Positions 19,146 to 59,760 of a stretch of 64,000 bases of DNA are shown here, piece after piece (the stretch's first letter is position 1; every line of letters begins with the position of its first letter). Under the pieces are notes generated by a model. The model searched no databases. It was not told where the DNA came from and worked only from the letters and a program-made list of their open reading frames with translations. The DNA comes from Borrelia parkeri (lineage in GTDB: Bacteria; Spirochaetota; Spirochaetia; Borreliales; Borreliaceae), in NCBI RefSeq assembly GCF_023035815.1, contig NZ_CP073164.1:92948-156947 (forward strand), given 5' to 3'. Position numbers and translations under genes: made by a program.

Positions 19146-21017
19146 ATGTTAAAGGTAAGATATCGTATTTCGTTACTAGTATTAATATTGTTATTATTGC
19201 TAGTAATGAGTTGTAATAACAAAGGTTCACAAGAGGCTGTTGCGGTTGGGGGACCCTCGACTATAGAAGAAAATGTAGAAGACCCCAAAGGACATGATGC
19301 AGGGAGTTTAAGTGCCGAGCTTGATAATCTTCTAAACACTTTTGGAGTATCTGAGGCGGGCAAGAGATCAATTATTAGGATTAAAGATGTGGTAACTGAT
19401 GCTGGTATTGGTAGTATTGAAAGTTACAGGAGTTATACTAATTCTGAGCTTTATACTTTGTTAAATGACTTAGGTGCTGCTAAGATTTGGGAAATTATCA
19501 AAGCAGATTTAGAGCTTGTTAAAACCCAAAAAGAAGCTCTTGAGGCTATAAATAATGTTCATAAACCCAAAGAAAGACAAAGTTTGCAAGTTAGGTTTGA
19601 TAGTAAGAAAAATGAGTATCCATTGCATTTAAAAGGGTTATTTAATGAATCTGATTTTAATGCTGTGTATAGAAATGTTATAGGTGATAAATATGTTAAT
19701 GAATTTACTGCGATTAAAGCTGAGGCTACACGAATTATAAAGAATGGGGATGTATATGAACTATTTTCAGTTCAGGAAAGGGTTGCAATTGATGAGATAC
19801 AAAATATAGTAACTGATGCTAGTCTTGTTCAAGATTACAAGACGTATAGTAGGGATGAGTTTAATAATTTGTTAAATAGTTTAGGTGATGTTAAGGTTAA
19901 TGAAATGATAAAAGCTTATTTAAGTGTTCAGGAGATTCAGAGAGAAGTTTTTGACATTATTAACAATGTAAAGGACGAGGATATAAAACGAAGATTGCAA
20001 GCTAGATATGATGATAAACAGAAAGAGTATCCGTTGCATTTAAAAAGGTTATTTAGTGACTCAATTGCTGATACTGTGTATGGTAGGGTTATAAGTGATA
20101 ATTATGTTTCTGAATTTGTTGCGATTAAAGAAAAAGCTATGCAAGTTATGGGTGGCTTTGATTTATATGAAGGGCTTCCATCTCGGGAAAAGTCCGTAGT
20201 TGATTTTATGCGAGGGATAGTAACTGATGCTAACATTGGTAATGTTAGCGATTACAAGACTTATACTGTTCCTGAGTTTTATGCTTTGTTAAATAGCTTA
20301 GGTGATGCTAAGATTCGGGAAATGATAAAATTTAATTTAGATATCTTTAAAATCCGAGAGGAAATTGAGGCAGCTATTGCAGGTCTAACTGAAGAGAAGG
20401 TAAAACAAGCATTGAACACTAGACTTGCTGATAGTAACAGTGAGTATTTACTTAGTGTAAAAGGGGCTTTTGGTGCATCTGTGGCGGATATTATATATCA
20501 TCGTTTTGTAAATAATTTTTATATTAATATTTATAAAGATTTGAAAAATAAAGTCGAAGATCCACGGGTTTTAGATGTATACACATGGCTTTCTGATGAG
20601 GGAAAAGGCGTAATTGATGAAATACAAGGTATAGTAACTGATCCTAATCTTGGTCGTGCTGAAGGTTACAGGACTTATACTGATTCTGAGGTTAATAATT
20701 TGTTAAATGACTTAGGTGATTCTAAGACTGGGGGAATGATAACAGCTTATTTAAGGGGTAAAGCCATTCAGGAGATAGTGTTAAAGGCTATAAATGCTGT
20801 TTCTGCAGGGACAGCAAAACAAAACTTGCAAAATAGATTTAATGCACATAAAAATGGATATGCGTTGCATTTGAAAGGGTTATTTAATAGCTTAAGTAGT
20901 GATACGGTTTATAATAATGTTGTACATGAGAAATATTCTGATGGATTTCTTAGGATTCAGGATTCTATTAGACTCATTCCATCAAATACAGCAGATAGTA
21001 CTGTAAGTAGTAATTAG
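19146..21017 (+). CDS. BTA121-type surface lipoprotein, four repeats, 623 aa
   Basis: First gene of the array. The frame opens at 19125, but the ATG at 19146 after AAAAGGAGATG is the real start. Lipobox VMSC with Cys23, a 30-residue acidic linker, then four copies of a 130-140 aa helical repeat at roughly residues 55-185, 190-325, 330-465 and 470-600. Each repeat carries the core I-x-x-I-x-x-I-V-T-D, then YKTYT-x-x-E-F-x-x-LLN-x-LG, then a second helical half ending YPLHLKGLF and VY. This is the most repeats of any gene in the array. Expected location is the outer surface; the ligand is unknown. A weak hairpin follows at 21084-21114. Confidence 0.88.
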   Translation: MLKVRYRISLLVLILLLLLVMSCNNKGSQEAVAVGGPSTIEENVEDPKGHDAGSLSAELDNLLNTFGVSEAGKRSIIRIKDVVTDAGIGSIESYRSYTNSELYTLLNDLGAAKIWEIIKADLELVKTQKEALEAINNVHKPKERQSLQVRFDSKKNEYPLHLKGLFNESDFNAVYRNVIGDKYVNEFTAIKAEATRIIKNGDVYELFSVQERVAIDEIQNIVTDASLVQDYKTYSRDEFNNLLNSLGDVKVNEMIKAYLSVQEIQREVFDIINNVKDEDIKRRLQARYDDKQKEYPLHLKRLFSDSIADTVYGRVISDNYVSEFVAIKEKAMQVMGGFDLYEGLPSREKSVVDFMRGIVTDANIGNVSDYKTYTVPEFYALLNSLGDAKIREMIKFNLDIFKIREEIEAAIAGLTEEKVKQALNTRLADSNSEYLLSVKGAFGASVADIIYHRFVNNFYINIYKDLKNKVEDPRVLDVYTWLSDEGKGVIDEIQGIVTDPNLGRAEGYRTYTDSEVNNLLNDLGDSKTGGMITAYLRGKAIQEIVLKAINAVSAGTAKQNLQNRFNAHKNGYALHLKGLFNSLSSDTVYNNVVHEKYSDGFLRIQDSIRLIPSNTADSTVSSN

Positions 21018-21083
21018 TACTAATTAAATGAGTTCTTAGAGATTTCTTGACCAGAGTAATTAAGAAAAGTTTTAAAAAGTTTT

Positions 21084-21114
21084 AAGCCTTAAATTTAAAA
21101 TGTTTAGGGCTTTT
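21084..21114 (+). terminator. Imperfect hairpin after the four-repeat gene
   Basis: AAGCCTTAAAT ... ATGTTTAGGGCTT then TTT. A degraded form of the hairpin that is near-perfect in the central block. Confidence 0.55.
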
Positions 21115-21299: not shown

Positions 21300-22793
21300 A
21301 TGTTAAAAATAAGACATTTGAGTATGTTACTAATATTAATAGTAAAACTATTATTAATAATATTAGTAATGAGTTGTGATGTAGGATCTAAAATGAATCC
21401 TGTAATTGAAAATATCGTGGCTATAACGCGGCCATTAAGAGGATTGAGAAGAAGTGTTAGGATGAGAAATGATTTTGGTGTAGTAGATAGCAATTTAAAT
21501 TTTAGTCTTAATAATCTGTTGGATGAGTTTCAGATACTTGATACAGAGAGACAGGTAATTACATATATTCGAAGTGTGGTATCTAGTCCTGTGATTGGTT
21601 GGGATGAGGATTATAAAACCTATAGTGATCATGAGTTTTATAATATGTTAAATAGTTTGGGTGCTAGTAGGGTAAAGGAAATAATTAAAGTTAATTCCAA
21701 AATTTTTCAAGCTCAAGAGAGAGCTACCAGTGCTATTTTAAATCTTAATGAAGATACAGTAAAACAGCAATTACAGGATAGCTTTGATACTAAGAATAAT
21801 GAGTATGAACTGCATTTAAAAGAGGCATTTAATGAATCTATGTCTAATGATGTGTATCTTAAGATTGTGGGTAGTAATTATGCTGATAAGTTTGACGATA
21901 TTAGACACCGTGCTATAGAGCTTGGGCCTAAAGGTGTGTATGTATGGTTATCTGTTGAGCAAAAAAAAGCAATTGATTATATGAAATCTATAGCAATGTC
22001 TTCTTTGGTTGGTGAGGATAGAGGTTTAAAGATATATACTAGTTCTGATTTTGATAACTTATTAAATGGGCTTGGTCTTTCTAAGGTTGAGGAAATTATA
22101 AAAACTTATAACCAGGTTATTAGTGCAGAAAATGAGGCTTATGAAGCTATAGAGAAGATTAAAACAGAAAAATTCAAAGAGGGATTGTTATATGCTGTTT
22201 CTGTGGCACATCGAATTGATTCTTATCAATTGCATTTAAAAGAGTTATTTAATGATTCTACATTTGAGAATATATATCGTAACTTTATTAAGAATCGTTA
22301 TTTTAGTGAATTAAACACTCTTTTAACCAATGTTATAAATAATGCTAAAATTTTTGTAGAGTTTGAAAAGTTTTATGAAAAGCTCTCAGAATATGATAAA
22401 GAGGTAATTACAAATATAAAAAATATATTAATTGATGTGAAGATTGGTAGATCAGAGGGTTATAGAGCTTATAATAATGTTAAATTTGCTTATTTGTTAG
22501 GTAGTTTAGGTGCAGCTAAGATTAGGGAAATAATAAACGTTCATTTAAATATTCTTCAAGCTCAAAACGAAGCTAGTTTGGCTTTGAATAAATTAAATCA
22601 AGGTGAAAGAAAAGAAAAATTGCAGATTGATTTTAATAGTCATGTGAATGGTTACCCATTGCACTTAAAAAGTCTCTACCATGATCTTAAAGCTGATAAT
22701 GTTTATAATAATGTCATAAAAAGTGATTATGCTAATAAGTATCTTGAGATTAAAAACGCTGCTGAATACATTTCAAGCGAAAAAGACATTTAA
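21300..22793 (+). CDS. BTA121-type surface lipoprotein, three repeats, 497 aa
   Basis: ATG after GAAGGA. Signal peptide with Cys26 in LVMSC. The linker is basic (RPLRGLRRSVRMR), unlike the acidic linkers of most paralogues. Repeats at roughly 60-205, 210-345 and 350-490. The second repeat is diverged (the IVTD core reads SIAMSSLVG) and the third has ILIDVKIG. No clear terminator in the 304-bp gap that follows. Confidence 0.86.
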   Translation: MLKIRHLSMLLILIVKLLLIILVMSCDVGSKMNPVIENIVAITRPLRGLRRSVRMRNDFGVVDSNLNFSLNNLLDEFQILDTERQVITYIRSVVSSPVIGWDEDYKTYSDHEFYNMLNSLGASRVKEIIKVNSKIFQAQERATSAILNLNEDTVKQQLQDSFDTKNNEYELHLKEAFNESMSNDVYLKIVGSNYADKFDDIRHRAIELGPKGVYVWLSVEQKKAIDYMKSIAMSSLVGEDRGLKIYTSSDFDNLLNGLGLSKVEEIIKTYNQVISAENEAYEAIEKIKTEKFKEGLLYAVSVAHRIDSYQLHLKELFNDSTFENIYRNFIKNRYFSELNTLLTNVINNAKIFVEFEKFYEKLSEYDKEVITNIKNILIDVKIGRSEGYRAYNNVKFAYLLGSLGAAKIREIINVHLNILQAQNEASLALNKLNQGERKEKLQIDFNSHVNGYPLHLKSLYHDLKADNVYNNVIKSDYANKYLEIKNAAEYISSEKDI

Positions 22794-23097: not shown

Positions 23098-24141
23098 ATG
23101 ATAAGGATAAAATGTCTCAGTTCATTATTAGTATTAATAATAATATTATCATTGCTAGTGGTGAGTTGTCGTAATTTTTCATTTCAAAAAAGAGGTGGAA
23201 CAAACGATGAGGCTTTAACACAATTAGGAATAAATCGTAGATTTGTTTTAGATGCTGAGTTCAATAAATTGCTAGACAAATTGCAGCTATTGGATGGAGA
23301 GAAACAAATAATTGCATATATAAGAAGTATAGTAACTGATCCTAAGATTGGTAACGAATTTTTAAGGACTTACACTAATCTTGAATTTAGTAATTTATTA
23401 AATGCATTAGGTTCTGATAAGGTTAAGGAAATTATAAAAAATCATTTAAAAGATTGTAAAAAAAGGCCCCCAATTATATCAAAAATCCAAGCACTAATTG
23501 ATAGTTTTAATAGAAATGATGAAGTAAAGAGAGTTTTTCAATCGGAATTAAATTATAAAAGTGATTATGCATTGCATTTAAAAGAGTTATTTAATCGTGA
23601 TAATCCTAATTATGTTTATAATGAAATTATGAAAGATGATTGTATTGATGATCTTCTTGAGGAAATAGAGGATGCTCAATACATTTTAAATTATGAGACT
23701 TTATATGCAAAGTTATCTATTGATGATAAGAAACACCTTGATTTTATACGAAATGTACTAATTAATCCTCCTATGGGCATTGTGCTTGATCCTAAGAAGC
23801 CTTTTAAGATTTATAATATTCATGAATTTGAGCTCTTGTTGGGTAGGATGGGTGTTGCTAGGTCTGAGGAAATTGTAAGGATACATAAAAATGTTTTGAA
23901 AGAAGAAGAAAATACTCGAAGGTCTCTAATTACTGCTATGGAAGGTCAGATGAAACAAAGCTTATTTAGACGTTTTAACAAGCACCAGGATGGTTATAGA
24001 ATTCATTTAATGTATTTATTTTTCCCTTATGCAGGATCTGAGAATAATGTGTATGATGCCTTTAAAAATAGTAATTATGCTGATGAGTATATTGCTATTC
24101 GAAACGAAGCTCTAAGCATTAGAGTAAATAAGATAAGATAA
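23098..24141 (+). CDS. BTA121-type surface lipoprotein, two repeats, 347 aa
   Basis: AAAAAGGAGATATTAA precedes the ATG. Cys24 in VVSC, short linker, repeats at about 55-195 and 200-340. The first repeat keeps IVTDPKIG; the second has an insertion (NPPMGIVLDPKKPFKIYN). Last member of the upstream block; the hairpin at 24227-24256 is the first of the strongly conserved terminator type. Confidence 0.86.
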   Translation: MIRIKCLSSLLVLIIILSLLVVSCRNFSFQKRGGTNDEALTQLGINRRFVLDAEFNKLLDKLQLLDGEKQIIAYIRSIVTDPKIGNEFLRTYTNLEFSNLLNALGSDKVKEIIKNHLKDCKKRPPIISKIQALIDSFNRNDEVKRVFQSELNYKSDYALHLKELFNRDNPNYVYNEIMKDDCIDDLLEEIEDAQYILNYETLYAKLSIDDKKHLDFIRNVLINPPMGIVLDPKKPFKIYNIHEFELLLGRMGVARSEEIVRIHKNVLKEEENTRRSLITAMEGQMKQSLFRRFNKHQDGYRIHLMYLFFPYAGSENNVYDAFKNSNYADEYIAIRNEALSIRVNKIR

Positions 24142-24226: not shown

Positions 24227-24256
24227 AAGCCTTAAACGTACACATTTAAGGCTTTT
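24227..24256 (+). terminator. Array terminator hairpin
   Basis: AAGCCTTAAACGT / AC / ACATTTAAGGCTTTT; one arm mismatch (ACAT for ACGT). AC-loop form. Confidence 0.75.
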
Positions 24257-24450: not shown

Positions 24451-25824
24451 GTGATTAAGTTAAACTATTTCAGTTTGTTTTTAGTATTAATATTTTTATT
24501 ATTGCTAGTTATAAGTTGTGATTCAGGAAGCAAGGCAGGAGCAGGCCTAGGAGCAGGAACAAATACAAGAACAGTAGTAAATCCAGGAGGAGTAGTAAAG
24601 CCAGGAAGAGCAGTAAATCCAGGAGGAGCAGGAACAAATACAAGAACAGTAGTAAATCCAGGAGGAGTAGTAAATCCAGGAGGAGCAGTAAATCCAGGAG
24701 GAGTAGTAAAGCCAGGAGGTGCAGGACTAGGTGCAGGAGGATCAGGAGGTGCAGAAGAAGCAGGACTAGGTGCAGGAGGATCAGGAGGTGCAGGAGAAGC
24801 AGGATTAGGTGCAGGAGGCGCAGGATTAGGTGCAGAAGAAGCAGGACTAGGTGCAGGAGGTGCAGGACTAGGTGCAGGAGGATCAGGAGGTGCAGGAGGT
24901 GCAGGAGGATCAGGAGGTGCAGAAGAAGCAGGATTAGGTGCAGGAGGAGCAGGAGGAGCAGGAGGTGCAGGAGGATCAGGAGGTGCAGGAGGCGCAGGAG
25001 GAGAGGATTATGGCATTAAAGCTCCAAGGCTTAAAGCAATGTTAGATGATCTTAATGGATCTATAGAAGGAAAGAAGGCAATTGGTTATATACGAAAAAT
25101 ACTCATTGATAAGTCTGATAATATTGAGGATAAGTTGTATAATCGCTTAAATAAATTAAAAGCTGATGTTATGATTGAAAAAATAATAAATCCTACTGTG
25201 AGCCTTTTGAGTGCTAGAGATGAAGCTTTAAAAGTTAAGGAAGATCCAACAAATGAAAGCATAAAATCCAGATTGCAAGATGTGTGTGATAGGTATGATG
25301 CTTTAGTTAAAAGAGCATTTAAGCATTACTTTGTTGATAATATCGGTTTAATAGATCGTGTGGTAGATACTGTTACTAGTTGTGCTTCTAAGTTTAGCAA
25401 GTTTAAAGAGATGATTAAAAATCCACGTGTGATGGATGTATATGCCTGGCTTGATGCTGATGAGCGTGCCATAATTGATGAGATAGAGCAGATAGTAATT
25501 GGTGGTGGTACTTATGACAAAGCTAGGTTTAATAATATGTTAAATAGTATAGGTGATTTTGATATTTTTAACATTATACTGGCTTGTAAAAAGGTTTCAA
25601 TTGAGCAGAAAGCAGCTGATGAAGCTATAAAAGGTGTTTCTGATGATGCAAAGAAGCAAAGATTGAGGGGTGAGTTTAATGAATTCGAAGTAAGATATTA
25701 TTCTCATATAAGATATGCTTTTGCTCTACCTCTTAATGAATTGTATTATGCTATTAATCATTATTATAATGGCTATTATGCTGACTTTTATGGTATTAGA
25801 TTAGAGACCGAAGATAGTTTCTAG
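24451..25824 (+). CDS. BTA121-type lipoprotein with Gly/Ala-rich stalk, 457 aa
   Basis: GTG start at 24451 after AAAAAGGAGATATTGG. Cys23 in VISC. Residues about 27-188 are an uninterrupted low-complexity stalk built from GAGLGAGG, GGSGGAEEAGLGAG and NPGGVV units (24529-25010). It has no aromatic residue and should be extended and flexible, about 160 residues long. Two repeats follow (about 195-325 and 330-455); the second has the IVIGGGTYDKARFNNMLN form of the central-block genes. It lacks the SGAAGG tail of its downstream neighbours. Hairpin at 25913-25942. Confidence 0.86.
   Translation: MIKLNYFSLFLVLIFLLLLVISCDSGSKAGAGLGAGTNTRTVVNPGGVVKPGRAVNPGGAGTNTRTVVNPGGVVNPGGAVNPGGVVKPGGAGLGAGGSGGAEEAGLGAGGSGGAGEAGLGAGGAGLGAEEAGLGAGGAGLGAGGSGGAGGAGGSGGAEEAGLGAGGAGGAGGAGGSGGAGGAGGEDYGIKAPRLKAMLDDLNGSIEGKKAIGYIRKILIDKSDNIEDKLYNRLNKLKADVMIEKIINPTVSLLSARDEALKVKEDPTNESIKSRLQDVCDRYDALVKRAFKHYFVDNIGLIDRVVDTVTSCASKFSKFKEMIKNPRVMDVYAWLDADERAIIDEIEQIVIGGGTYDKARFNNMLNSIGDFDIFNIILACKKVSIEQKAADEAIKGVSDDAKKQRLRGEFNEFEVRYYSHIRYAFALPLNELYYAINHYYNGYYADFYGIRLETEDSF
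24529..25010 (+). repeat. In-frame Gly/Ala-rich low-complexity repeat
   Basis: Irregular tandem units of 9-24 bp built on GGAGGTGCAGGA-like words, always in multiples of three bases. Far richer in G than the surrounding sequence. Confidence 0.85.
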
Positions 25825-25912: not shown

Positions 25913-25942
25913 AAGCCTTCAACGTGTACGTTTAAGGCTTTT
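25913..25942 (+). terminator. Array terminator hairpin
   Basis: AAGCCTTCAACGT / GT / ACGTTTAAGGCTT then TT; one arm mismatch. GT-loop form. Confidence 0.8.
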
Positions 25943-26098: not shown

Positions 26099-27067
26099 AT
26101 GTTAAAGATAAAATGTTTCAGTTTATTACTAATATTAATCTTGCTATTATTGCTATTTATAAGTTGTGATTTAGGAATCAAAGCGAGAACAAATACAGGA
26201 GCAGAGGTAATAACAGAGACAGTAGGAGATGAAGAGGAACTAGCATATTTGGATGATATTATTGATCCAAAGCTTAAAGCATTGTTAGATAAGTTTGGGG
26301 TATCTAGATCAGGAAGGAAGGCAGTTATTTACATACGAGGAGGCCTCATTGGTGATATTGTTTATGATCGTTTAAATAAATTAGAAGCTGATGTTGTGAT
26401 TGAAAAGATAATAAATCCTACTGTGAGCCTTTTGAAGGCTAGAGGTGAGGCTTTGAGAGTTATTCAAGATCCAACAAATGAAGGCGTAAAAGGCAGATTG
26501 CAAGATGTGTTTAATAGGTATGATAATTTAGTTGATATAAGAGGAAAATTTATTTACGTCGTTGGTTCAGAAGATAGTTTTGCAAATGCTGTTACTCGTT
26601 ATGCTTCTAAATTTAGAAAGTTTAAAGAGATGGTTAAAAGTCCACGTGTGATGGATGTATATGCCTGGCTTGATGATGCTGATCGTATTACAATTGATGA
26701 GATTGAGAAGGTAGTAATTAGTGATACTTATGACAAGGATAAGTTTAATAATGTTTTAAATAGTTTAGATGATTATCGTATTGTTAGAATTATAGAGATT
26801 TATCGAGGTATTAAAATTAAGCAGGAGGAAGCTTTGAAAGCTATAGATGCGGTTTCTGATATTGCAGTAAGTCAAGACTTGCAAGCTAGATTTGATAGGC
26901 TTAAAGGTGAGTATAATTCTCATATAAGAGATGCTTTTAATAAATCTTCAGGTGAATTGTCTTTTCAGCTTACAAATGATAGTAATAAATATCGTAGGGG
27001 CTTTGATGTTATTAAAAGCAACGCTGAAGCTGCCAAAGCACATGGTGCGGCAGGTGGTGGTAGTTAA
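26099..27067 (+). CDS. BTA121-type surface lipoprotein, two repeats, 322 aa
   Basis: Cys23 in FISC. A short 25-residue linker ends in GDEEELAYLDD, a signature shared through the central block. Repeats at about 55-185 and 190-310, joined by KSPRVMDVYAWL. C-terminal tail AKAHGAAGGGS, the first occurrence of the Gly-rich end that marks the next twelve genes. One of the shortest members, close to the minimal two-repeat design. Terminator 27142-27171. Confidence 0.86.
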   Translation: MLKIKCFSLLLILILLLLLFISCDLGIKARTNTGAEVITETVGDEEELAYLDDIIDPKLKALLDKFGVSRSGRKAVIYIRGGLIGDIVYDRLNKLEADVVIEKIINPTVSLLKARGEALRVIQDPTNEGVKGRLQDVFNRYDNLVDIRGKFIYVVGSEDSFANAVTRYASKFRKFKEMVKSPRVMDVYAWLDDADRITIDEIEKVVISDTYDKDKFNNVLNSLDDYRIVRIIEIYRGIKIKQEEALKAIDAVSDIAVSQDLQARFDRLKGEYNSHIRDAFNKSSGELSFQLTNDSNKYRRGFDVIKSNAEAAKAHGAAGGGS

Positions 27068-27141: not shown

Positions 27142-27171
27142 AAGCCTTAAACGTGTACGTTTAAGGCTTTT
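27142..27171 (+). terminator. Array terminator hairpin
   Basis: Perfect 13-bp arms (AAGCCTTAAACGT and complement), GT loop, T tail. Confidence 0.85.
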
Positions 27172-27324: not shown

Positions 27325-28347
27325 ATGGTAGATATAAAGTGTTTCAGTTTATTACTAGTATTAATATTTTTGTTATTGCTAGTTATAAGTTGTGGTTCAG
27401 AAATCAAAACAGGAGAAGGAACAAATACAGGGGCAGGCACAGAAGAAGGAACAGGACCAGAAGAAGAAGTAGGAGATGAAGATGAGCTAGCATATTTAGA
27501 TGATGAGTTTATTGATCCAAGTTTTATAGCATTATTAGATAAGTTTGGGGTATCTGGAGAAGGAAGGAAGGCAATTGGTTATATACTAGGAAAAGTCGAT
27601 AATATAGAAAAAATCAATAATGATGATGTTTATGATCGTTTAAATGAATTAGGAGCTGATATTACGATTAAAAATATAATAAATCCTACTGTGAGTCTTT
27701 TGAAGGCTAGAGGTGCAGCTTTAAAAGGTATTGAAGATCCAACAAATGAAAGCATAAAATCCAGATTGCAAGATATGTTTGAAAAGTGTGATCGTTTATC
27801 TGCACTTTACTTGTGGGAGTTTTTTGGTAGACTAATCGAAGAAAATGATTTTTTAGAGTTTATTACTCGTTGTATTTTTAGGTTTAGAAAGTTGAAAGAG
27901 ATGGTTAACAATCCACGTGTGATGGATGTATATGAATGGTTTGATGCTGATGATCGTGCTACAATTGATGAGCTAGGGAATATGGTAATTAGTGGTACTT
28001 ATTACAGATCTATATTTAATAAGGTGTTAAATAATTCAGGCGATTATCTTGTTATTAAAATTGTAGTGGCTTATCAATCTATTCAAAAAAGGCAGGAGGA
28101 AGCTTTGAAAGCTATAGCTATTGTTCGTAATGAAGCAGTAAGGCAAGTATTGCAGAATCGTTTTGATAAACTCAAAGGTGATTATGATTTTCATATAAGA
28201 AAATCTTTTAATCAAGGTCGATATGGCTTGTATTTGCAAATTATGACTGATGGTAAGAAATATCGTGAAGCCTTTAATGCTATTCAAAAAGCCGCTCAAG
28301 TTGCCAGATCTGACAAAGCACGTGGTGCGACAGGTAGTGGTAGTTAA
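27325..28347 (+). CDS. BTA121-type surface lipoprotein, two repeats, 340 aa
   Basis: Cys23 in VISC; linker very acidic (TEEGTGPEEEVGDEDE). The end of the first repeat is a distinct variant (MFEKCDRLSALYLWEFF, FITRCIFRFRKLKEM) and the protein ends with FNQGRYGLYLQIMTDGKKYR. Both variants recur only in the gene at 36272, nine kilobases away. Tail ARGATGSGS. Terminator 28397-28426. Confidence 0.86.
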   Translation: MVDIKCFSLLLVLIFLLLLVISCGSEIKTGEGTNTGAGTEEGTGPEEEVGDEDELAYLDDEFIDPSFIALLDKFGVSGEGRKAIGYILGKVDNIEKINNDDVYDRLNELGADITIKNIINPTVSLLKARGAALKGIEDPTNESIKSRLQDMFEKCDRLSALYLWEFFGRLIEENDFLEFITRCIFRFRKLKEMVNNPRVMDVYEWFDADDRATIDELGNMVISGTYYRSIFNKVLNNSGDYLVIKIVVAYQSIQKRQEEALKAIAIVRNEAVRQVLQNRFDKLKGDYDFHIRKSFNQGRYGLYLQIMTDGKKYREAFNAIQKAAQVARSDKARGATGSGS

Positions 28348-28396
28348 TCCTTAAATTAGTTTAAAGTAATATTAAAGATAGTAAGTAAAGAAAGTA

Positions 28397-28426
28397 AAGC
28401 CTTAAACGTGTATATTTAAGGCTTTT
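28397..28426 (+). terminator. Array terminator hairpin (decayed)
   Basis: AAGCCTTAAACGT / GT / ATATTTAAGGCTTTT; one mismatch near the loop. GT-loop form. Confidence 0.75.
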
Positions 28427-30037: not shown

Positions 30038-30067
30038 AAGCCTTAAATGTACATGTTTAAGGCTTTT
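30038..30067 (+). terminator. Array terminator hairpin
   Basis: AAGCCTTAAATGT / AC / ATGTTTAAGGCTTTT. The T here and the A opposite it replace the usual C/G, so pairing is kept by a compensatory change. AC-loop form. Confidence 0.8.
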
Positions 30068-32092: not shown

Positions 32093-32122
32093 AAGCCTTA
32101 AACGTACACGTTTAAGGCTTTT
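32093..32122 (+). terminator. Array terminator hairpin
   Basis: Perfect 13-bp arms, AC loop, T tail. Confidence 0.85.
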
Positions 32123-33319: not shown

Positions 33320-33349
33320 AAGCCTTAAACGTGTACGTTTAAGGCTTTT
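33320..33349 (+). terminator. Array terminator hairpin
   Basis: Perfect 13-bp arms, GT loop, T tail. Confidence 0.85.
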
Positions 33350-33445: not shown

Positions 33446-33532
33446 TTATAATAATGGTATTATTATAAATTTGTATAATAATATATATAAAATATATTCA
33501 AATTTAATTTGAAAAAGGAGATATTGAATGGT
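33446..33532 (+). promoter_or_regulatory. Leader of a central-block gene (representative)
   Basis: Contains an AT-rich inverted repeat near 33449-33471 (TTATAATAAT, GGT, then its complement), a TATAAT box in TTGTATAATAATATAT, and the 17-bp palindrome TTCAAATTTAATTTGAA at 33497-33513 directly before AAAAGGAG. The same palindrome occurs at 34807, 36241, 37684, 38992, 40300, 41491 and 42729, always at the same distance from the ribosome site. Confidence 0.6.
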
Positions 33533-34647: not shown

Positions 34648-34677
34648 AAGCCTTAAACGTACACGTTTAAGGCTTTT
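34648..34677 (+). terminator. Array terminator hairpin
   Basis: Perfect 13-bp arms, AC loop, T tail. Confidence 0.85.
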
Positions 34678-36063: not shown

Positions 36064-36093
36064 AAGCCTTAAACGTGTACGTTTAAGGCTTTT
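36064..36093 (+). terminator. Array terminator hairpin
   Basis: Perfect 13-bp arms, GT loop, T tail. Confidence 0.85.
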
Positions 36094-37526: not shown

Positions 37527-37556
37527 AAGCCTTAAACGTACACGTTTAAGGCTTTT
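37527..37556 (+). terminator. Array terminator hairpin
   Basis: Perfect 13-bp arms, AC loop, T tail. Confidence 0.85.
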
Positions 37557-38835: not shown

Positions 38836-38865
38836 AAGCCTTAAACGTACACGTTTAAGGCTTTT
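38836..38865 (+). terminator. Array terminator hairpin
   Basis: Perfect 13-bp arms, AC loop, T tail. Confidence 0.85.
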
Positions 38866-40142: not shown

Positions 40143-40172
40143 AAGCCTTAAACGTACACGTTTAAGGCTTTT
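40143..40172 (+). terminator. Array terminator hairpin
   Basis: Perfect 13-bp arms, AC loop, T tail. Confidence 0.85.
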
Positions 40173-41393: not shown

Positions 41394-41423
41394 AAGCCTT
41401 AAACGTACACGTTTAAGGCTTTT
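41394..41423 (+). terminator. Array terminator hairpin
   Basis: Perfect 13-bp arms, AC loop, T tail. It is followed by the shortest spacer of the block (98 bp to the next start). Confidence 0.85.
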
Positions 41424-42600: not shown

Positions 42601-42630
42601 AAGCCTTAAATGTGTACGTTTAAGGCTTTT
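42601..42630 (+). terminator. Array terminator hairpin
   Basis: AAGCCTTAAATGT / GT / ACGTTTAAGGCTTTT: a G-T mismatch (G-U in RNA) next to the loop. GT-loop form. Confidence 0.8.
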
Positions 42631-50016: not shown

Positions 50017-51658
50017 ATGGTTGAGGTAAAGAGTCATAATTTATTAATATTACTGTTATTGCTAATAATAAGTTGTAATGCAGGTTCTCAAGGTGTTTTT
50101 TCACTTAAAGATAGCTCGTTTAAGTATAGTTCGTTTCGAAAGAGCTCGCTTGGATACAGTTCTCTTAGTGATAGCTCGTTTCGAAGAAGCTCGTTTAGTA
50201 GTAATTCTTTTAAAAGGAACTCGAGTGATATAATATCATCTAGAGAAAATTTGCTTAAAGGGGACTTGCTTGAAAAATCACTGGTTGAAGCATCCACAGT
50301 TAAAAATAATGTAAAAAAATTGGGCAAAAGTAATATCTTAAATCCTTCTGAAATGGGGAGCGTAGGGGTAAAGCTAGATGTTAAGCTTGACAAGCTTCTT
50401 GGTACATTTGGGATACCCTTTAACGAAAGGCAAGTAATTACATATATACAAAGAATATTAACTGATCCTAATATTGGTGGTTCTCTAGGTTATAAATTTT
50501 ATGATAACGAAGAATTTTATAACTTGCTTAGTGATTTAGGTGCTTTAAGATTGAAAAAAATTATAGAATTTCATTTAAAGATTATTGAAGCGCAAAATGA
50601 TGCTAAAGTAGCTATTCGCGATGTGAAGGATACAAAATTAAAAGAGAGATTGCAAACTAGATTTAAAGAATACAATAAGGCTTATCCATTGCATTTAAAA
50701 GGATTATTCAGTAAAGCTATTTCTGATAATGTTTATGATAAAGTTATAGGTAGTGATTATAATTTTAAGTTTAATACGATTACGGACAAAGCTCGTAGCA
50801 TGATAAACTTTGAAAGTCTATATGCAGAATTGTCAGGTGATCAAAGGATTGCAGTTGATAATATACGGATGATAGTAACTGATCCTAGTATTGGTAGTAC
50901 CGAAGGTTATAAGACGTATAGTACGGATGAGTTTTATAACTTACTTTATAGCTTAGATGCTTTTAAGATCAAGACACTTATAAAATTTCATGTAGAAAAT
51001 GTTATAGCACGCAACGAGTCTCTAGCAGCTATTCGAGATGTTAAGGATGCAAAATTAAAAGATAGATTACAAACTAGATTTAAAGAGTACAATAAGGCTT
51101 ATCCATTACATTTAAAAGAATTATTCAATGAATCTACTCCTGAGGGGGTGTATGGTAGAGTTATAAATAGTAAATATGCGTCTAAATTTGTTGAAGTTAA
51201 ATCAGCCTCTCTTGGTTTTATAAAAAGTAGATCTCCATATACAGGGTTATCAGGTGATAAAGGTATTGTAATTGAATATATGCGGGGAGTAGTAACTGAT
51301 GCTGATATTGGAAGTTAGCTAGGTTACAAGACTTATGATAATGAAAAATTTTATAGCTTACTCTATAGTTTAGGTGATGTTAAGTTGGGTGAGATTATAA
51401 ACCATATTCAAATAACTCTTAAAGCACGAAGTGATGTCCAAGCTAGCTATAGAGGATGTTAAGGACGCGAACTTAAAACAGAAATTGGTACGTAAGTTTA
51501 AAGAAAAGGAGCGTTCTTATTTAGTTGCGTTAAAATCGGTCTTTAATAAATCTACTCCTGGGGAAGTGTATAGGGCCGCTATAGGTATTGATCATTCGAA
51601 TAATTTTATATCCATTAAAAGTGATGTTGCTAGTCATTTACGCAAAAGAGAGGTTTAG
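50017..51658 (+). pseudogene. Broken BTA121-type lipoprotein gene (stop plus frameshift)
   Basis: Frame 50017-51318 codes 433 aa: Cys20 in IISC, a linker with five-residue SSF(K/R)x-type periodicity (residues about 30-70), two intact repeats and the beginning of a third up to VVTDADIGS. An in-frame TAG at 51316-51318 stands where paralogues continue GxxLGYKTY. The frame then runs on as LGYKTYDNEKFYSLLYSLG to about 51435, where a one-base shift moves the match into the frame that ends KREV at 51658. A shortened two-repeat lipoprotein could still be made. Confidence 0.85.
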
Positions 51659-52264: not shown

Positions 52265-53719
52265 ATGATAAAGGTAAATCATCTTGGTGAGTTCTTAGCC
52301 TTAGCCTTAATATTAATGTTGTTATTCTTGCTAATTATAAGTTGTAATTTAAAATCCCAAAGAGATATTGCGTTTAGAGAGAATTTAACTGTAGACGGAT
52401 CTTTAAAAAATTTAAAAAAGCCTGTTGTAGGCGATATAACTGTTAAAATTAATAATCTGTTAGATGCATTTAGGATATTTGATGATGAGAGAGACGTAAT
52501 TAATAATATACAAATTGCAATCACTGATCCTAATATTGGTAGTGCTGGAGGTTTCAAAACGTATGATATGGATGAGTTTTATAATTTGCTTGATGGTTTA
52601 GGTTCTCTTAAGCTTAAGGAAATTATAAAAGTTCATTCAAATGCTCTTGAAGTTCAGGTCCAAGCAGAAAGAGAAGCTAGATCAGTTATTGATAGTGTTA
52701 AGGGAGACGTATTAAAGCGACGTTTGGAGAATATGTTTAATCAGCACAAGGATTACTGTCTATCTTATTTAAAATGGTTATTTAATGATCCTACCCCTGA
52801 CACGGTGTATTTTAGAGTGATAAATGATAATTATGTTGATAAGTTTAGTAAGATTAAAGACCGTATTCAAAGTGTTATAGAGGATGAAAGGCAATATGCA
52901 GGGTGGATGTCAGCGTCAGAGCTTGAATCAATTGCATTTATACGAGATATATTAACCGATCCTAGTATTGTTGGTTATGGAGGTCTTAAGACCTATAGTA
53001 ACTCTGAGTTTTATAACTTGTTAAGGAATTTAGGTGATACTATTTTGAAGGAAATTATACAATTTCATTTAAATAATCTTAGAACAGAAAATGCGGCTTT
53101 AGTAGCTATTGAGAATCTTCAAGAAGGTTATGAAAAACAACAATTGCAATATAAATTGTATTTTTATAAGCTTAAATATTCATTATATTTGAAAGAGTTA
53201 TTTAGTGAGCCTACTTCGGATGATATTTATCGCAAATTTCTGGTTAGTCTTTATGATTTTTTTAATCTTTTTGCTAAGCTTGAGAGCGATGCTTTAGGCA
53301 TTATGAGGGGGAAGGAACTATACTCAGGACGGATGTCTTCTTCAGAGCTTGCAGTAATTTGGTATATACTACTTGTAATAACTGATCCTGATATTGGGGG
53401 TTTCACAATATATAATTATGAAAGATTTTATAACTTATTAGAGCAGTTAGGTGATGTTAAGGTTAAAGTAATTATACAAAATATCCAAAAAACTCTTAAA
53501 GCACAAGATGAAGCGAAAACGGCTGTAGAGAATGTTAATGACGTGAACTTAAAACAAAGATTAGAAAGTGATTTAAAAGAAAAAAATAGCGCGTATGTGT
53601 TGGCACTAAAAGAGGCATTTGGTAAGTTGAGTTATGATTCTATTTATCAAACAACTAAAAATGTTGATTATGTTAATTGGTTTAATGCTATTAAAGATAC
53701 TGCTTCTAGCAGTATTTAG
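52265..53719 (+). CDS. BTA121-type surface lipoprotein, three repeats, 484 aa
   Basis: AAAAGGAGATATTTA precedes the ATG. Longer signal peptide (Cys27 in IISC). Short basic linker, then repeats at about 60-200, 205-345 and 350-482. The first two repeats have ITDPNIG and LTDPSIV cores and are separated by YAGWMSASELE. Intact. A weak hairpin is possible in the 3' spacer (TAAGCTTTAAATATT ... TTTAAAGCTTTT near 53770-53810). Confidence 0.86.
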   Translation: MIKVNHLGEFLALALILMLLFLLIISCNLKSQRDIAFRENLTVDGSLKNLKKPVVGDITVKINNLLDAFRIFDDERDVINNIQIAITDPNIGSAGGFKTYDMDEFYNLLDGLGSLKLKEIIKVHSNALEVQVQAEREARSVIDSVKGDVLKRRLENMFNQHKDYCLSYLKWLFNDPTPDTVYFRVINDNYVDKFSKIKDRIQSVIEDERQYAGWMSASELESIAFIRDILTDPSIVGYGGLKTYSNSEFYNLLRNLGDTILKEIIQFHLNNLRTENAALVAIENLQEGYEKQQLQYKLYFYKLKYSLYLKELFSEPTSDDIYRKFLVSLYDFFNLFAKLESDALGIMRGKELYSGRMSSSELAVIWYILLVITDPDIGGFTIYNYERFYNLLEQLGDVKVKVIIQNIQKTLKAQDEAKTAVENVNDVNLKQRLESDLKEKNSAYVLALKEAFGKLSYDSIYQTTKNVDYVNWFNAIKDTASSSI

Positions 53720-53951: not shown

Positions 53952-55118
53952 ATGTTTAAGGTAAGATATTTTAGTGAGTTACCGATATTAATATCATTTT
54001 TATTGCTAATTATAAGTTGTGATTTAGACTCTTCAGAAGATTTTGTAACAAGTCTATTTGGAAAAGGATCTGTTGTAGAACGTGAGTATGAAAATTTAGT
54101 ACAAAAATATTTGAAAGGACTTGTAGAAGAATTTACAGAAGATCTTTCAGAAGAGTCTAGAGTAATTACAGAAATGGATATAGATACGCGTATAGAAGAA
54201 CAATTTGATTTAAAATTGAAGAATCTTTTAGACAAATTTGGAATATTTGACAAGGATAGGAAAGTCGTTGGATATATGTACCTTGTGACCACTGCGGATA
54301 ATAGTGATGATATTTTAATGCTTAAGCAGTATACTAGCGATGAGTTTTTTAATTTGTTGGAACAATTAGGTGCTGAGAGATTAAAAGACATGATAGAAGC
54401 TTGTTTTAGTGATCTAAGAGCACTATCTGAATATAGACCAAAAGTTAAAGAAATTCTAAAGGATATTAAGAGGGATTCAATAAGACAAAAATTGGAGGGG
54501 GAGCTTGCTTGGTACGAAGAGTCTACTGCCTATCCATATTATTTAAGATGTGCATTTAAGGATTCTAATCCTGATGTTGTATATGCTCAAGTCATGTATG
54601 TAGGTCCTGCTTATGTTTTGGGTAGGATTTATTCAGAGGCTAAAAGCATTCTAAAGATTGAGAATGTGTACTCAGAGCAGTATTTAGAACAACCTTCTGA
54701 GAGCGAATGGAGAATAATTGATTATATACGAGATATATTAATTGATGAGAAGATTGCTCAGAATAAAAATTATAAGACGTATACTATTTCTGAGTTTTAT
54801 AACTTGCTTGGTGATTTAGATGTTACTAAGATTAGGGAAATTATAAGCCGTACTCAAGAGACTCTTACAGCATACGAAGACGCCAAAGTGGCTATAAGTG
54901 GTATTAATGACTTAAGATTAAGGCAAGACTTTAGTAATAGGTTGGAGAAAAGATTGAGTGTTTATGGAAGGACCTTAAAAGGGGTCTTTAATAAATCTGA
55001 TATTGATGCTATTTATAGAGCAGCTATAAATAGTAAATTTATTGATGAGTTTGCTGTGATTCAAGACGAAGCTAAACTTATTTCAATAAACTTAGCAAGT
55101 AGTTCTTCAAAAGAGTAA
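53952..55118 (+). CDS. BTA121-type surface lipoprotein, two repeats, 388 aa
   Basis: Cys23 in IISC. A 65-residue acidic linker rich in E and S (LVEEFTEDLSEESRVITEMD). Repeats at about 90-225 and 230-375. The first is diverged (YMYLVTTADNSDDILMLK in place of the IVTD core). Ends in Ser/Lys (LASSSSKE), without the Gly tail of the central block. Confidence 0.85.
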   Translation: MFKVRYFSELPILISFLLLIISCDLDSSEDFVTSLFGKGSVVEREYENLVQKYLKGLVEEFTEDLSEESRVITEMDIDTRIEEQFDLKLKNLLDKFGIFDKDRKVVGYMYLVTTADNSDDILMLKQYTSDEFFNLLEQLGAERLKDMIEACFSDLRALSEYRPKVKEILKDIKRDSIRQKLEGELAWYEESTAYPYYLRCAFKDSNPDVVYAQVMYVGPAYVLGRIYSEAKSILKIENVYSEQYLEQPSESEWRIIDYIRDILIDEKIAQNKNYKTYTISEFYNLLGDLDVTKIREIISRTQETLTAYEDAKVAISGINDLRLRQDFSNRLEKRLSVYGRTLKGVFNKSDIDAIYRAAINSKFIDEFAVIQDEAKLISINLASSSSKE

Positions 55119-55351: not shown

Positions 55352-56758
55352 GTGGTCAAAAAAAGATATAAGGTTATGTTATTAGTAATAATATTATTTT
55401 TAGTAATAGGTTGTAAATTCCAAGAAAGTGCCATGCGTGATGAAAAGTTTCTTGAGAATAACCTTGTTGGAGGATTTTTTAAAGTATTTAATGATAATAT
55501 AGGAGATGTTAAGCTTAATAATTTACTAAGTGCGTTTGGGATATCTTATGAGAGAAAGAAAATAATGGAAGAGATACAAAATGCAGTAACTGATCCTTAT
55601 ATTGGTAAACTTGAAAGTTATAAGACGTATAATACGGATGAATTTTATAACTTACTTTATAGTTTAGGTGCTCTTAAAGTAGAGGAGATGATAGATTCTC
55701 ATTTTAAAAATCTTCAAGTTCAAGGTGAGGCTCGCAATGCCATAAAGGATATAATTGAATCTGACTTAAGACAAGAAATGCAAAATAGGTTTAATGATCA
55801 CGTGAATGATTATCCATTATATTTAAAATGGTCATTTAATGACCTTACTTCTGGTGGGGTGTATAATCGATTTATGAATGGTGGTTATTTTATTGGGTTT
55901 GCTAAAATTAGAGACGATTCTATAGACATTTTAGGGGGTGATGATGTATACATGGGGCTTTCTGATTCACAGCAAGATGTAATTGATGATATGCGAGATA
56001 TGGTAATTGATCCTAAGAGAGGCTCTTTGATGCACGTAACTTATGATACTAAAGGTTTTTATGACTTATTAAATAAGATGCGTGCTGCTAAGGTTAAGAA
56101 AATGATAAAGGTGTATTTGGAGAACAAAAAAGCACGACAAGAATTAGAACTAGAAGCTAGAGAAGCTATTTTGGAGGTTAATAGAGAGGAATTGAAACAA
56201 CGCTTGGAGAATGATCTTAATAAATTGAATGATGATTACTCATTGTATTTCAAAGGGTTATTCGATACTTCTAGTTCTGATAATGTGTATTTTAGAGTTA
56301 TAGATGATAATTATGCTACTAGGTTTATTAAAATTAAGAATAATGTTGGGTATATTGTAGAGTTTGATAAGCTATATAAAGGGTTATCAGATGTGCAAAG
56401 AAAAATACTTGATGATGAGATACGAGTTATAGTAACTGATGCGGATATTGGCAAGGATAAAGACTATAAAATTTATGATGATTTTACGTTTGAGCTCTTG
56501 TTAGGTGAGTTAGGCACTACTAAAGTTGAAAAAATGATACAAGTTTATTTCAAAAGACAAGTAACTCAGAACGAGGTTCGCAATGCTATAGGTAATATAA
56601 GTGGGGATGATGCAAAACAACGCTTGAGGAATATTTTTGTTCGTTACAAAAATGACTATAAATTACATTTAAAAGAATTATTCAGTGAGTCTACTGCTGA
56701 TGAGATATATAATAGATTTATAAATGATGATTATACTATTGGGTATTATGCTGATTAA
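55352..56758 (+). CDS. BTA121-type surface lipoprotein, three repeats, 468 aa
   Basis: GTG start at 55352 after AAAAAGGAGATATTGA. Cys21 in VIGC. Repeats at about 50-190, 195-330 and 335-468; the second holds VIDPKRGSLMHVTYDTKGFYDLLNKM, shared with the next gene. The protein stops inside what is normally the last helix of a repeat (TIGYYAD), so the end may be slightly shortened. Confidence 0.85.
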   Translation: MVKKRYKVMLLVIILFLVIGCKFQESAMRDEKFLENNLVGGFFKVFNDNIGDVKLNNLLSAFGISYERKKIMEEIQNAVTDPYIGKLESYKTYNTDEFYNLLYSLGALKVEEMIDSHFKNLQVQGEARNAIKDIIESDLRQEMQNRFNDHVNDYPLYLKWSFNDLTSGGVYNRFMNGGYFIGFAKIRDDSIDILGGDDVYMGLSDSQQDVIDDMRDMVIDPKRGSLMHVTYDTKGFYDLLNKMRAAKVKKMIKVYLENKKARQELELEAREAILEVNREELKQRLENDLNKLNDDYSLYFKGLFDTSSSDNVYFRVIDDNYATRFIKIKNNVGYIVEFDKLYKGLSDVQRKILDDEIRVIVTDADIGKDKDYKIYDDFTFELLLGELGTTKVEKMIQVYFKRQVTQNEVRNAIGNISGDDAKQRLRNIFVRYKNDYKLHLKELFSESTADEIYNRFINDDYTIGYYAD

Positions 56759-56972: not shown

Positions 56973-58430
56973 ATGATAAAAATTAGACATATCAGTTTGT
57001 TACTAATAGTAATATTACTATTATTGCTAGTAATAAGTTGTAAGTTCCAAGGAAATACTGATCTTACAGAGACCTTGCAAGCAAGCTTAAGACCTATAAG
57101 AGAAGCAGGAAGCGATAATGTGGATATTAAAATTAATAGTCTTTTAAACGCATTTGGGATATTTGCTGAAGAAAAGGGCGCAATTGCATATATACGAAGT
57201 ATAGTAACTGATCCTAGTATTGGTAGTGTTGAAGGTTACAGAACATATGATGATGAAGATTTTTATGATTTGTTAAGACAGCTGGGTTCTTTTAAACTAA
57301 AAGAAATAATAGAAGTTCATTTAAAAATTTTCAATACCGCTCCAGACGCAGCTTTAGCAGCCATAAATAATGTTATGGAAAGTGAGGAAAAGCGAGACTT
57401 ACAAAATAAACTGAGTAGTTACAAAGATGCTTATCCATTGCATTTAAAAGGGTTATTTAGTAGGTATGTTTTAAATGATGTGTATTTGTACGTTATGGGT
57501 GATGATTATGCTGTTAAGTATGCTGAGCTTGAAGATGAGGCTATAAACATTGTAGTGGGCGTGGACGTATATGCAGGGCTTTCTGATTTGGAACTAAGAG
57601 TAATTAATTATATAAGAAGTGTAGTAACTGATTTCAAGGTAGGGCCTCTGGGTCATAAAACGTATAGTAATTCTGAATTTTATGACTTATTAAATAAGAT
57701 GCGTGCTGCTAAGGTTAAGAGAATGATAAGAATTTATTTAGGGGACAAAAGAGCACAAAAGGATGCCGAAGCAGAAATTAGAACAATTATTGCAAATATT
57801 CAGGGAGATAGAGCCAAAAAACACTTGGAGAGTACTATTGATAATTTGAATAATTCTTATTCAGTGCATTTAAAAATGTTATTTGATAGATCTACCCCTG
57901 ATGAGGTGTATGATATAGTGACGATTGATAATTATGCTTCTAGGTTTATTAAGGTTTATGATGAGGCTAAACGCATTTTAGAGTTTGAAAATCTATGTAA
58001 CAACGAGATATTAGATGCGGAGCTAAAAGCAGTTAAAGATATGCGAAATATAGTGATTAAGTCCGGTATTGGTAGAGCCGAAGGTTATTCAATGTATGAT
58101 GATTATACGTTTGATTTTTTGTGTGGTAGTTTAGGTTCTGAGATACTTAAAAAAATTATAAAACTTCATTTAGAGATTATGGATAGACAAGAAGAGGCTC
58201 TTGAGGTTATAAAAAATCTTCAAGAAGGCTACGAAAAACAAAATTTGCAAGATAAGTTTATCGGGTACAAAAATGCCTATGCTTTGCATTTAAAAATGTT
58301 GTTCGATAGATCTCCTTCTAATGCTATTTATGATGAAATTGTAAAGGGTAATTATGTTGATAAGCTTATTAATCTGAAGGAAGCAGCATTTACTGAGATA
58401 AAAAAATCAGTAGGGCAGATAGTATTTTAG
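56973..58430 (+). CDS. BTA121-type surface lipoprotein, three repeats, 485 aa
   Basis: The ribosome site is preceded by TTTGAGCAAAGGAG rather than the usual TTTGAAAAAGGAG. Cys23 in VISC, short linker. Repeats at about 45-185, 190-325 and 330-475. Repeat 2 shares LLNKMRAAKVKRMI with 55352, indicating common origin or exchange. Last intact gene of the array. Confidence 0.86.
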   Translation: MIKIRHISLLLIVILLLLLVISCKFQGNTDLTETLQASLRPIREAGSDNVDIKINSLLNAFGIFAEEKGAIAYIRSIVTDPSIGSVEGYRTYDDEDFYDLLRQLGSFKLKEIIEVHLKIFNTAPDAALAAINNVMESEEKRDLQNKLSSYKDAYPLHLKGLFSRYVLNDVYLYVMGDDYAVKYAELEDEAINIVVGVDVYAGLSDLELRVINYIRSVVTDFKVGPLGHKTYSNSEFYDLLNKMRAAKVKRMIRIYLGDKRAQKDAEAEIRTIIANIQGDRAKKHLESTIDNLNNSYSVHLKMLFDRSTPDEVYDIVTIDNYASRFIKVYDEAKRILEFENLCNNEILDAELKAVKDMRNIVIKSGIGRAEGYSMYDDYTFDFLCGSLGSEILKKIIKLHLEIMDRQEEALEVIKNLQEGYEKQNLQDKFIGYKNAYALHLKMLFDRSPSNAIYDEIVKGNYVDKLINLKEAAFTEIKKSVGQIVF

Positions 58431-58645
58431 TTAATTCTTAAAAAAGTACTTAAAGTAATTGAGCCTTAGATATAAATATTTAAGGTTTTTAATTTTTACT
58501 GATAAATAAAATGTTAAAGATTTATCTTAAGGATTAGTTGTGTTAATGCTTGTTAAAGATTATGATATTGTAATACTACAATGATAAATTTATATAATAG
58601 TAGGTAAAATTATGGATTAATTTGAACTTAAAAGGAGTATATTAA

Positions 58646-59760
58646 ATGGTTAAGGTAAAGTATTCCATTTTGTCTCTAGTATTAATAGTAGTATTAAGAT
58701 TAATATTTCTATTATTGCTAGTGGTAGGTTGTATGACTTATATAAGTTGTAATTTAAAACCCCAAGAAGATATCACTTTTATAGATAATTCTTCAAGAAA
58801 AGAATCGCCTGGAAAAAAATCGTCTAAAGGAGAAGAGTTTAGACTGAAATTGTTTAAAAAGAACTCTTTGGGAAGAAAATTGCTTGTAAAGGACTTGTTT
58901 GAAAAGTTTCCGTTTAAAGAGAAATTGATTGTAAAAAATCCTTCCAAAGATCATCTACATTATCATGTAGATAATCATGTAGATAATCATGTATGTAAAT
59001 TAAAAAAGAATGAGATGGTGAGGATTTTTGTAACAAATGCAGAAAAGAAAAATCTAGATACTGAACTTAATGATATATTAGACATGTTTGGGATATTTGA
59101 TGAAGGAAGGGAAGCAATTAATGATATACGATATGTAGTAACTGAACCCGATATAGATTTTTTGTATAGTAAGACGTATTCTGATGGAGAATTTTATGAT
59201 TTACTCTATAACTTAGGTTTTCTTAAGTTAAGGGATATTATAAAAGTTTATTTAAAGGTTTGCAAAGCATATTGCAAGCTGGAAGCAGCTATAAAGGATG
59301 TTAAGAGAGAAAACTTAAGAAAAGAATTGATGGATGAGCTTGTTTCTTACAAGAATAATTATCCGTATCATTTAAAAGAGTTATTCAGAGGTACCCCTGA
59401 TTATGTATATAGTAAGATTATGGGTGATAATTATGCGCATAATCTTATTAAGATGGAAAATAAAGTTAGAGATGTTATAAAGGGTGAGATATTATACTCA
59501 GGACTACATGTTGAGAATAGACGAGTTGATTGAGTATATACGAAAGTTAGTAATTAGTTCTGATACTAGTGATGGTAGGCGTTATAATGATTATGAGTTT
59601 TATTGTGTATTAGGTTTTTTAGGTTTTAGTGAGTTTAAGAGACTTATAAGAGTTAATTTAGGAGCTTTTTTAGAACACTAAAAGGAGACCGAAGAGAAGC
59701 TTTGCCTCATCTACAATATTCACTTAGTAGGAATAGTAATTATATTTTTGGAGGTGCAGT
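58646..59760 (+). pseudogene. Frameshifted, truncated BTA121-type lipoprotein gene at the array end
   Basis: Frame 58646-59533 (295 aa) has two possible lipoboxes (VVGC29 and YISC35) and a long Lys-rich linker with SSRKE, SLGRK and FPFKEK words. A His-rich stretch, HLHYHVDNHVDNHV, follows, then one full repeat (VTEPDIDFLYSKTYS). Near 59515 a one-base shift moves the match to the next frame (RIDELIEYIRKLVISSDTSDG), which stops at 59679-59681. Further downstream another short coding-like stretch (REEALPHLQYSLSRNSNYIFGG) runs to the junction with the phosphoglucomutase gene. Confidence 0.8.

Follow-up and report, generated by a model that had tools for sequence, protein, structure and literature searches.

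A two-tier array of BTA121-family lipoprotein genes on the Borrelia parkeri megaplasmid, with a middle block of cassettes probably remodelled by recombination

Antigenic variation of relapsing-fever Borrelia in the blood is well studied. In B. hermsii, the vlp/vsp genes share a 5′ element that reaches into the gene (UHS) and a 3′ element outside it (DHS), which holds an inverted repeat of 31 bp, and these two elements are the proposed crossover points; switching requires the DHS inverted repeat, and the system has a single promoter for about 60 silent genes (PMC6011951). Here we describe a different locus, an array of 26 genes of the BTA121 lipoprotein family in a 64,000-nucleotide stretch of B. 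parkeri DNA (assembly GCF_023035815.1, contig NZ_CP073164.1, positions 92,948 to 156,947; hereafter the window), taken from the right-hand side of a megaplasmid contig. The array itself and its protein family are already known. It is the same locus as bta112-bta139 of B. turicatae lp150, for which Wilder 2016 (PMC4741519) reported paralogues, inverted repeats and tick-phase induction, and the same region as megaplasmid repetitive block D, named the most variable block in Kneubehl 2023 (PMC10580987). The B. parkeri SLO genes assigned there to DUF1617, collagen-like and LpxA-like classes fit our W07, W04 and W19: W07 and W19 gave weak profile matches of the DUF1617/LpxA-like kind, and W04 has a glycine-rich tether. 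The block D genes are largely unclassified in that paper, whose relevant section offers no recombination mechanism and no link to BTA121, and in the consulted text of Wilder 2016 we found neither a scaffold/block split nor a comparison of copy number among isolates, and no mention of cassette crossovers or conversion. Searches of the open-licence PMC literature showed no title or abstract on recombination of cassettes in this array. In the papers searched, the findings reported below, namely the two tiers, the palindromes specific to the block and the recombination of cassettes, appear to be undescribed.

The array consists of 13 scaffold genes (W01-W03 and W17-W26) and a middle block of 13 (W04-W16; 24451-42541). 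The closest plasmid records to the window are those of B. turicatae and B. venezuelensis, which match it piecewise at 82-92% identity, and we compared the window genes (W) with the arrays of B. turicatae BTE5EL (E), 91E135 (T) and BTCAM1 (M) and of B. venezuelensis (V). Between the same scaffold orthologues the block holds 13 genes in the window (W04-W16), 13 in BTE5EL (E04-E16), 12 in 91E135 (T04-T15), 11 in BTCAM1 (M04-M14) and 0 in V, counts which exclude an array identical in content across isolates, an outcome that a preliminary description of this stretch had named as one that would refute it. A clear orthologue of W02, W03, W17 and W21-W25 is present in every array compared, that of W02 being split in V; these scaffold orthologues are 81-91% identical to B. 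turicatae but only 32-40% identical to the nearest paralogue. W01 (60-61%), W18-W20 and W26 match the equivalent scaffold places less cleanly, and E17, the B. turicatae gene adjoining the block, is without a counterpart in the window. Scaffold paralogues are 32-40% identical to each other, with the exception of the W19/W20 pair at 80%. The window block genes have best B. turicatae matches of 43-86% and within-genome paralogues of up to 91% (W13-W14). In a tree built from the 319 core codons of the alignment (884 columns in all; the core-column tests below use the same 319), the lineages W04/E04, W05/E05, W09/E13, W12/E15 and W07+W08/E12 are old and shared (support 97-100), and one subclade has expanded separately in each species (W10, W11 and W13-W16 with E16, support 90; E06-E09, E11 and E14, support 92).

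The block is also set apart by a palindrome, GCCTTAAACGT-NN-ACGTTTAAGGC, which at up to 3 mismatches has 14 sites in the 1.6-Mb genome; these coincide with the 14 borders from 3/4 to 16/17, and the reversed pattern used as a control has 0 sites in that genome at the same threshold. Of 18 genomes from the genus, only the one that contains the window carries the palindrome at up to 2 mismatches; B. turicatae, a carrier, seemingly lies outside those 18. The counts at up to 3 mismatches are 13 in E, 12 in T, 11 in M and 2 in V, and these sites are the block borders (two at 4 mismatches were missed) plus the junction to the right of E17 and its equivalents, at 3 mismatches (2 in V). Inverted repeats of 21-29 nt flanking these genes have already been reported (PMC4741519). 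Several scaffold junctions have hairpins that are related to the block palindrome but diverged.

By painting the BTCAM1 and 91E135 arrays with BTE5EL and aligning the junctions, we mapped at least five cassette-level crossovers, one at the palindrome, two just before it and two at the leader/start, and all five (5/5) fall in shared flanks; intergenic DNA and the first 66 coding bases together make up 22.6% of the BTE5EL block. Isolate 91E135 is without E14, and its junction 13/14 switches at the palindrome. BTCAM1 is without E09, and its junction 07/08 switches between the gene end and the palindrome; its M07 carries the E07 leader on the E08 body, with the switch lying between -95 and +58. 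At V junction 05/06, the DNA at the downstream end of gene 3 is joined to the leader of gene 5, the switch lying just before or in the left arm of the palindrome, and a second switch at the ribosome-binding site (RBS)/start has placed the gene 5 leader on the gene 17 coding start. Since V retains the gene 5 leader, and both B. parkeri and B. turicatae possess the block, V has lost it. One intragenic conversion tract is clear: over nt 700-860, M12 agrees with M14 at 157/161 positions and with its orthologue E14 at 135/161, and over nt 860-1100 the relation is reversed (123/172 with M14, 168/172 with E14).

The preliminary description had counted 26 same-strand paralogues, and this count stands: 26 open reading frames (ORFs) of the family lie at 19146-59533, all on the plus strand, each with a lipobox pattern and with an RBS 6-9 nt upstream of the start (AAAGGAG in 24 genes; the variants of W02 and W21 are weaker). 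All carry one to four BTA121 domains by our own hidden Markov model. They form two populations of genes, not one, and two of them, W21 and W26, are disrupted. Hairpin terminators had been assigned to most genes; hairpins after the stop beat shuffles at p<0.05 in 19/25 junctions (40 shuffles each, the end after W26 left out), the one after gene 4 gave p=0.073, and genes 2, 17, 19, 21 and 24 have no clear hairpin. The repeats had been called constant and the linkers and tails hypervariable. The block tether (38-175 residues) and tail (0-267 residues) do vary, chiefly in length, but the block domains average only 54-60% amino-acid identity in the window and 58-63% in BTE5EL, with 15-residue stretches inside them down to 28-38%.

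The view that the genes are individually transcribed rather than silent cassettes agrees with these RBSs and hairpins, and with a predicted promoter-like leader core, TTTGCAGAT or a near variant, about 80-140 bases upstream of the start in 12/13 window block genes. It also agrees with published quantitative reverse-transcription PCR (qRT-PCR) on B. turicatae, in which the genes were up 2- to >500-fold at 22 C and 2- to >65-fold higher in ticks than in blood, with bta113 and bta115 undetectable and bta114 and bta117-bta119 giving a signal only in ticks (PMC4741519). As T10 of 91E135 is the crystallised BTA121 (5VJ4; 375/375 residues), we infer that bta(111+i) corresponds to Ti by order up to i=13. 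Because adjacent genes differ in these data, array neighbours probably act as separate expression units, and a display of many variants at once, the most likely arrangement, would fit the published population-level data. A consensus promoter scan gave 141 and 140 matches compared with 103.5 and 116.5 in shuffles, so single matches mean little.

The block and the vlp/vsp genes are alike in that shared flanks, one of them with an inverted repeat (14/14 borders), hold the mapped crossovers, an analogy of layout and not of sequence. They differ in that the block genes have their own leaders, with predicted promoters, and in that the genome, searched at up to 3 mismatches, has the block palindrome at no other place. 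Silent copies without expression signals and served by a single expression site, by which the vlp/vsp system is recognised, were not found at the array.

We consider it probable, though well short of certain, that this is a two-tier array of separately transcribed tick-phase cassettes, whose block is remodelled by homologous recombination at shared elements. The 13 scaffold genes would be old and mostly orthologous between species, and a block cassette would comprise a leader (with the shared promoter-like core in 12/13), an RBS, a lipoprotein gene and a palindromic hairpin. The cassettes would most likely be separate transcription units used mainly in the tick phase, as shown in print for B. 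turicatae and presumed for the window, so that one cell would probably display many variants together. Recombination would take place between shared elements on both sides of the gene: on the 3′ side the palindrome together with the stretch that precedes it, and on the 5′ side the leader with the RBS and the signal-peptide end; it would delete or merge whole cassettes, and gene conversion would patch domain segments. The proteins may each consist of a tethered series of BBA03/FhbA-like helical modules, and most likely bind tick or host ligands. Within this reading, what has the standing of observation is that isolates differ, that V has lost the block and that one conversion tract exists.

Several points weigh against it. 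The comparison covered B. turicatae with three isolates and each sister species with a single genome, and the check for assembly collapse covered BTE5EL alone, where a second record has the same 13 block proteins. The right edge of the block is blurred in B. turicatae, where junction 17/18 (16/17 in T, 15/16 in M) also has the palindrome, with 3 mismatches. Of the five crossovers, a single one can be placed at the palindrome itself, and substitutions between isolates reach no higher density there (14/800) than in the 5′ flank (26/1469), so that neither result speaks for an active palindrome. The leader of W16 is without the core, and the promoters are predictions. Both alleles of core differences occur among paralogues in 98/131 cases between E and M (35.0 expected from random substitution) and in 11/15 between E and T (3.8 expected), and 18-22 of 55-78 pairs reach p<0.01 in a permutation test, but constraint varies along the gene, which inflates both measures. 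A scaffold gene is also locally diverged, with at least 14 differences between E03 and M03 and windows at 91-95% near nt 650-770.

The evidence on selection is similarly two-sided. The ratio of non-synonymous to synonymous differences (pN/pS) is 0.33 and 0.24 in non-array plasmid controls (18 and 12 genes of clear order and like length), and the whole array is far less constrained than these plasmid neighbours. For the block it is 1.37 between E and M (p=0.097) and 1.05 between W and E (p=0.58; 6/13 W block genes), neither different from 1, with single block pairs at 0.82-3.02, and for three near pairs within BTE5EL, which were hand-picked, it is 1.76 (p=0.0019). Scaffold values are raised too, at 1.41 for E-M (11 pairs, without E19/20 and E27-29) and 0.67 for W-E (8/13 W scaffold genes, without W01, W18, W19, W20 and W26), with single V-E pairs at 0.44-2.12. 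Because scaffold genes share the raised ratio, weak constraint is indistinguishable from diversifying selection, a further point against our reading, and positive selection on the array is only suggested. No weight was given to the 25 coding indels, all multiples of 3, since the partners were chosen as open frames and the split E19/E20, E27 and E28 were left out.

A different possible explanation is ordinary birth-and-death, with passive unequal crossing-over between like neighbours, palindromes that are terminators homogenised by copying, and a high pN/pS that reflects weak constraint. Several of the crossovers do lie in DNA of high identity (0.85-0.92 in the palindrome, 0.79-0.85 in the 40 bases that precede the start and 0.85-0.90 in coding bases 1-66, compared with 0.76-0.78 in the domains), scaffold genes also decay and show raised pN/pS, and five crossovers are few. 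However, two of them fall in the stretch between stop and palindrome, where identity (0.71-0.78) is no higher than in the domains; block genes are open with both domains in 49/49 cases (W, E, T and M) whereas 2/13 window scaffold genes are disrupted; and the picked near pairs have a pN/pS above 1. We regard birth-and-death as plausible but less likely than remodelling at the shared elements.

Promoter-level phase switching, suggested in the preliminary description, would have one or a few genes on per cell through length changes in the leader. The leaders are AT-rich, an 8-bp unit, GATATATA, occurs in 1-3 copies among paralogues, and a 17-bp unit upstream of scaffold gene 1, the sole leader repeat found to vary among isolates, has 3 copies in BTE5EL, 2 in BTCAM1 and 1 in 91E135. 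In nine block leaders from the three B. turicatae isolates, however, the differences are mostly outside the promoter-like core, none changes the -35/-10 spacing length and the 8-bp unit is constant, so slippage at that unit was dropped; the genes tested by qRT-PCR, apart from those undetected, were moreover up in the tick (PMC4741519). We regard such switching as improbable. Still less credible is a silent archive feeding an expression site elsewhere in vlp/vsp style: the cassette borders resemble UHS and DHS in placement and gene conversion does occur, but a start, RBS and signal peptide in 26/26 genes, a hairpin of their own in most, and published transcripts of individual genes (PMC4741519) led us to reject it. 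One long operon is just as hard to credit and was likewise rejected. It would suit genes on one strand with gaps of 178-309 nt (946 nt after the disrupted W21) and six junctions without a clear hairpin, but hairpins stand in 19/25 junctions and neighbours behave differently in the published qRT-PCR (PMC4741519).

A bolder claim is that relapsing-fever Borrelia has, besides vlp/vsp, another diversification system that works in the tick phase, and that the block is this system. All genes of the library would be on, and the palindromes, unique in the genome, would act like the inverted repeat of the vmp DHS and promote the deletion, merging and patching of whole promoter-gene-terminator units, giving isolate-specific sets of FhbA/BBA03-like proteins. 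We regard this as doubtful, because a single crossover of the five can be placed at the palindrome and W16 is without the core.

Table 1. Positions in the window of the array genes, block palindromes and associated features
Feature	Position	Strand	Remark
17-bp tandem unit, W01 leader	19083..19120	+	orthologous unit varies in copy number among B. turicatae isolates
W01 scaffold	19146..21017	+	4 BTA121 domains
W02 scaffold	21300..22793	+	3 domains
W03 scaffold	23098..24141	+	2 domains
Palindrome 3/4	24229..24252	.	left block border
W04 block gene	24451..25824	+	Gly-rich repeat tether, 2 domains
Palindrome 4/5	25915..25938	.	
W05 block gene	26099..27067	+	
Palindrome 5/6	27144..27167	.	
W06 block gene	27325..28347	+	
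Palindrome 6/7	28399..28422	.	
W07 block gene	28581..29987	+	Ala-rich tail
Palindrome 7/8	30040..30063	.	
W08 block gene	30211..32040	+	long Ala-rich tail
Palindrome 8/9	32095..32118	.	
W09 block gene	32256..33260	+	
Palindrome 9/10	33322..33345	.	
W10 block gene	33528..34595	+	
Palindrome 10/11	34650..34673	.	
W11 block gene	34838..36004	+	
Palindrome 11/12	36066..36089	.	
W12 block gene	36272..37474	+	
Palindrome 12/13	37529..37552	.	
W13 block gene	37715..38776	+	
Palindrome 13/14	38838..38861	.	
W14 block gene	39023..40090	+	
Palindrome 14/15	40145..40168	.	
W15 block gene	40331..41341	+	
Palindrome 15/16	41396..41419	.	
W16 block gene	41522..42541	+	leader without promoter-like core
Palindrome 16/17	42603..42626	.	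right block border
W17 scaffold	42760..44232	+	3 domains, structure modelled
W18 scaffold	44494..46119	+	
W19 scaffold	46363..48129	+	near-duplicate of W20, 18-bp coding repeats
W20 scaffold	48308..49792	+	
W21 scaffold	50017..51318	+	disrupted in third domain
W21 third-domain decayed continuation	51319..51655	+	two frames
W22 scaffold	52265..53719	+	
W23 scaffold	53952..55118	+	
W24 scaffold	55352..56758	+	
W25 scaffold	56973..58430	+	
W26 scaffold	58646..59533	+	disrupted after first domain
W26 second-domain remnant	59481..59678	+	other frame

Intact genes number 24/26. The frame of W21 ends in its third domain, which resumes in two other frames, and W26 is broken after its first domain, with a remnant of the second in another frame; as their counterparts in other arrays are likewise short or split, this decay is probably old. 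The near-duplicates W19 and W20 (46363-49792) occupy a site that holds a single gene in B. turicatae and B. venezuelensis, and the coding repeat array of W19 has 13 copies of its 18-bp unit. The alanine-repeat tails of W07 and W08 (28581-32040) are GC-rich (gene GC 0.40 and 0.46) and give rise to long antisense ORFs, which are probably spurious.

All 10 of the 26 genes that were submitted to NF047534 exceeded its curated cut-off of 45 bits (119-553 bits), and 10 of the 26 scanned with PF05714 (Pfam54/CRASP/Chi) had no match at E<=0.01, so a Pfam54 link was dropped. Among 36 genomes of the family, NF047534 has 34-86 matches in 9 and 1-2 in 6 of the same genus; 17 of the 18 genomes of the other genus have one or two weak matches below the cut-off, and 4/36 have none. 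Five of 149 sampled genomes of the phylum match, all from this genus. Judged by these counts, the amplification is a feature of part of the genus. A scan of the genome contigs with W17 gave 14 pattern matches, none of which was confirmed.

Relatives of other sizes were also seen. Giant ORFs of 1781 and 1848 aa with 13 BTA121-type repeats lie at L035 813-6155 (G000:C9), L017 37321-42864 and L018 41040-46583, the one in B. hermsii DAH fitting in place and size a published protein of about 210 kDa without homologues outside Borreliaceae, and repeats of this type also occur in two other genomes, in open frames 2343 and 2472 aa long. One-domain relatives of about 160-200 aa, possibly the ancestral form, occur on the same megaplasmid (L037 927-1517; G000:C6:63500-66000) and in genomes with only 1-2 copies (L024 and L026). 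The other (left) end of the megaplasmid has two more two-domain BTA121 lipoproteins (L036 3991-5052 and 5615-6616; G000:C6).

A BTA121 repeat, as modelled, is similar in structure to BBA03 and to FhbA, which binds factor H; sequence identity is 17-19%, and the Foldseek E for FhbA is no better than 0.04. BBA03 and FhbA are single modules, whereas the array genes carry 1-4 each. A PDB search with the single-domain protein of another genome (G020) returned nothing at 0.001, and so no sequence link to BBA03. One member of the BTA121 family is known to bind palmitate in vitro.

No diversification system for the tick phase is described in the literature that we searched. A block of separately expressed, isolate-variable lipoprotein genes with genome-unique palindromes makes tick-phase diversification testable, and the link to the BBA03/FhbA fold, if the modelled resemblance holds, would give the first testable ligand class for the family.

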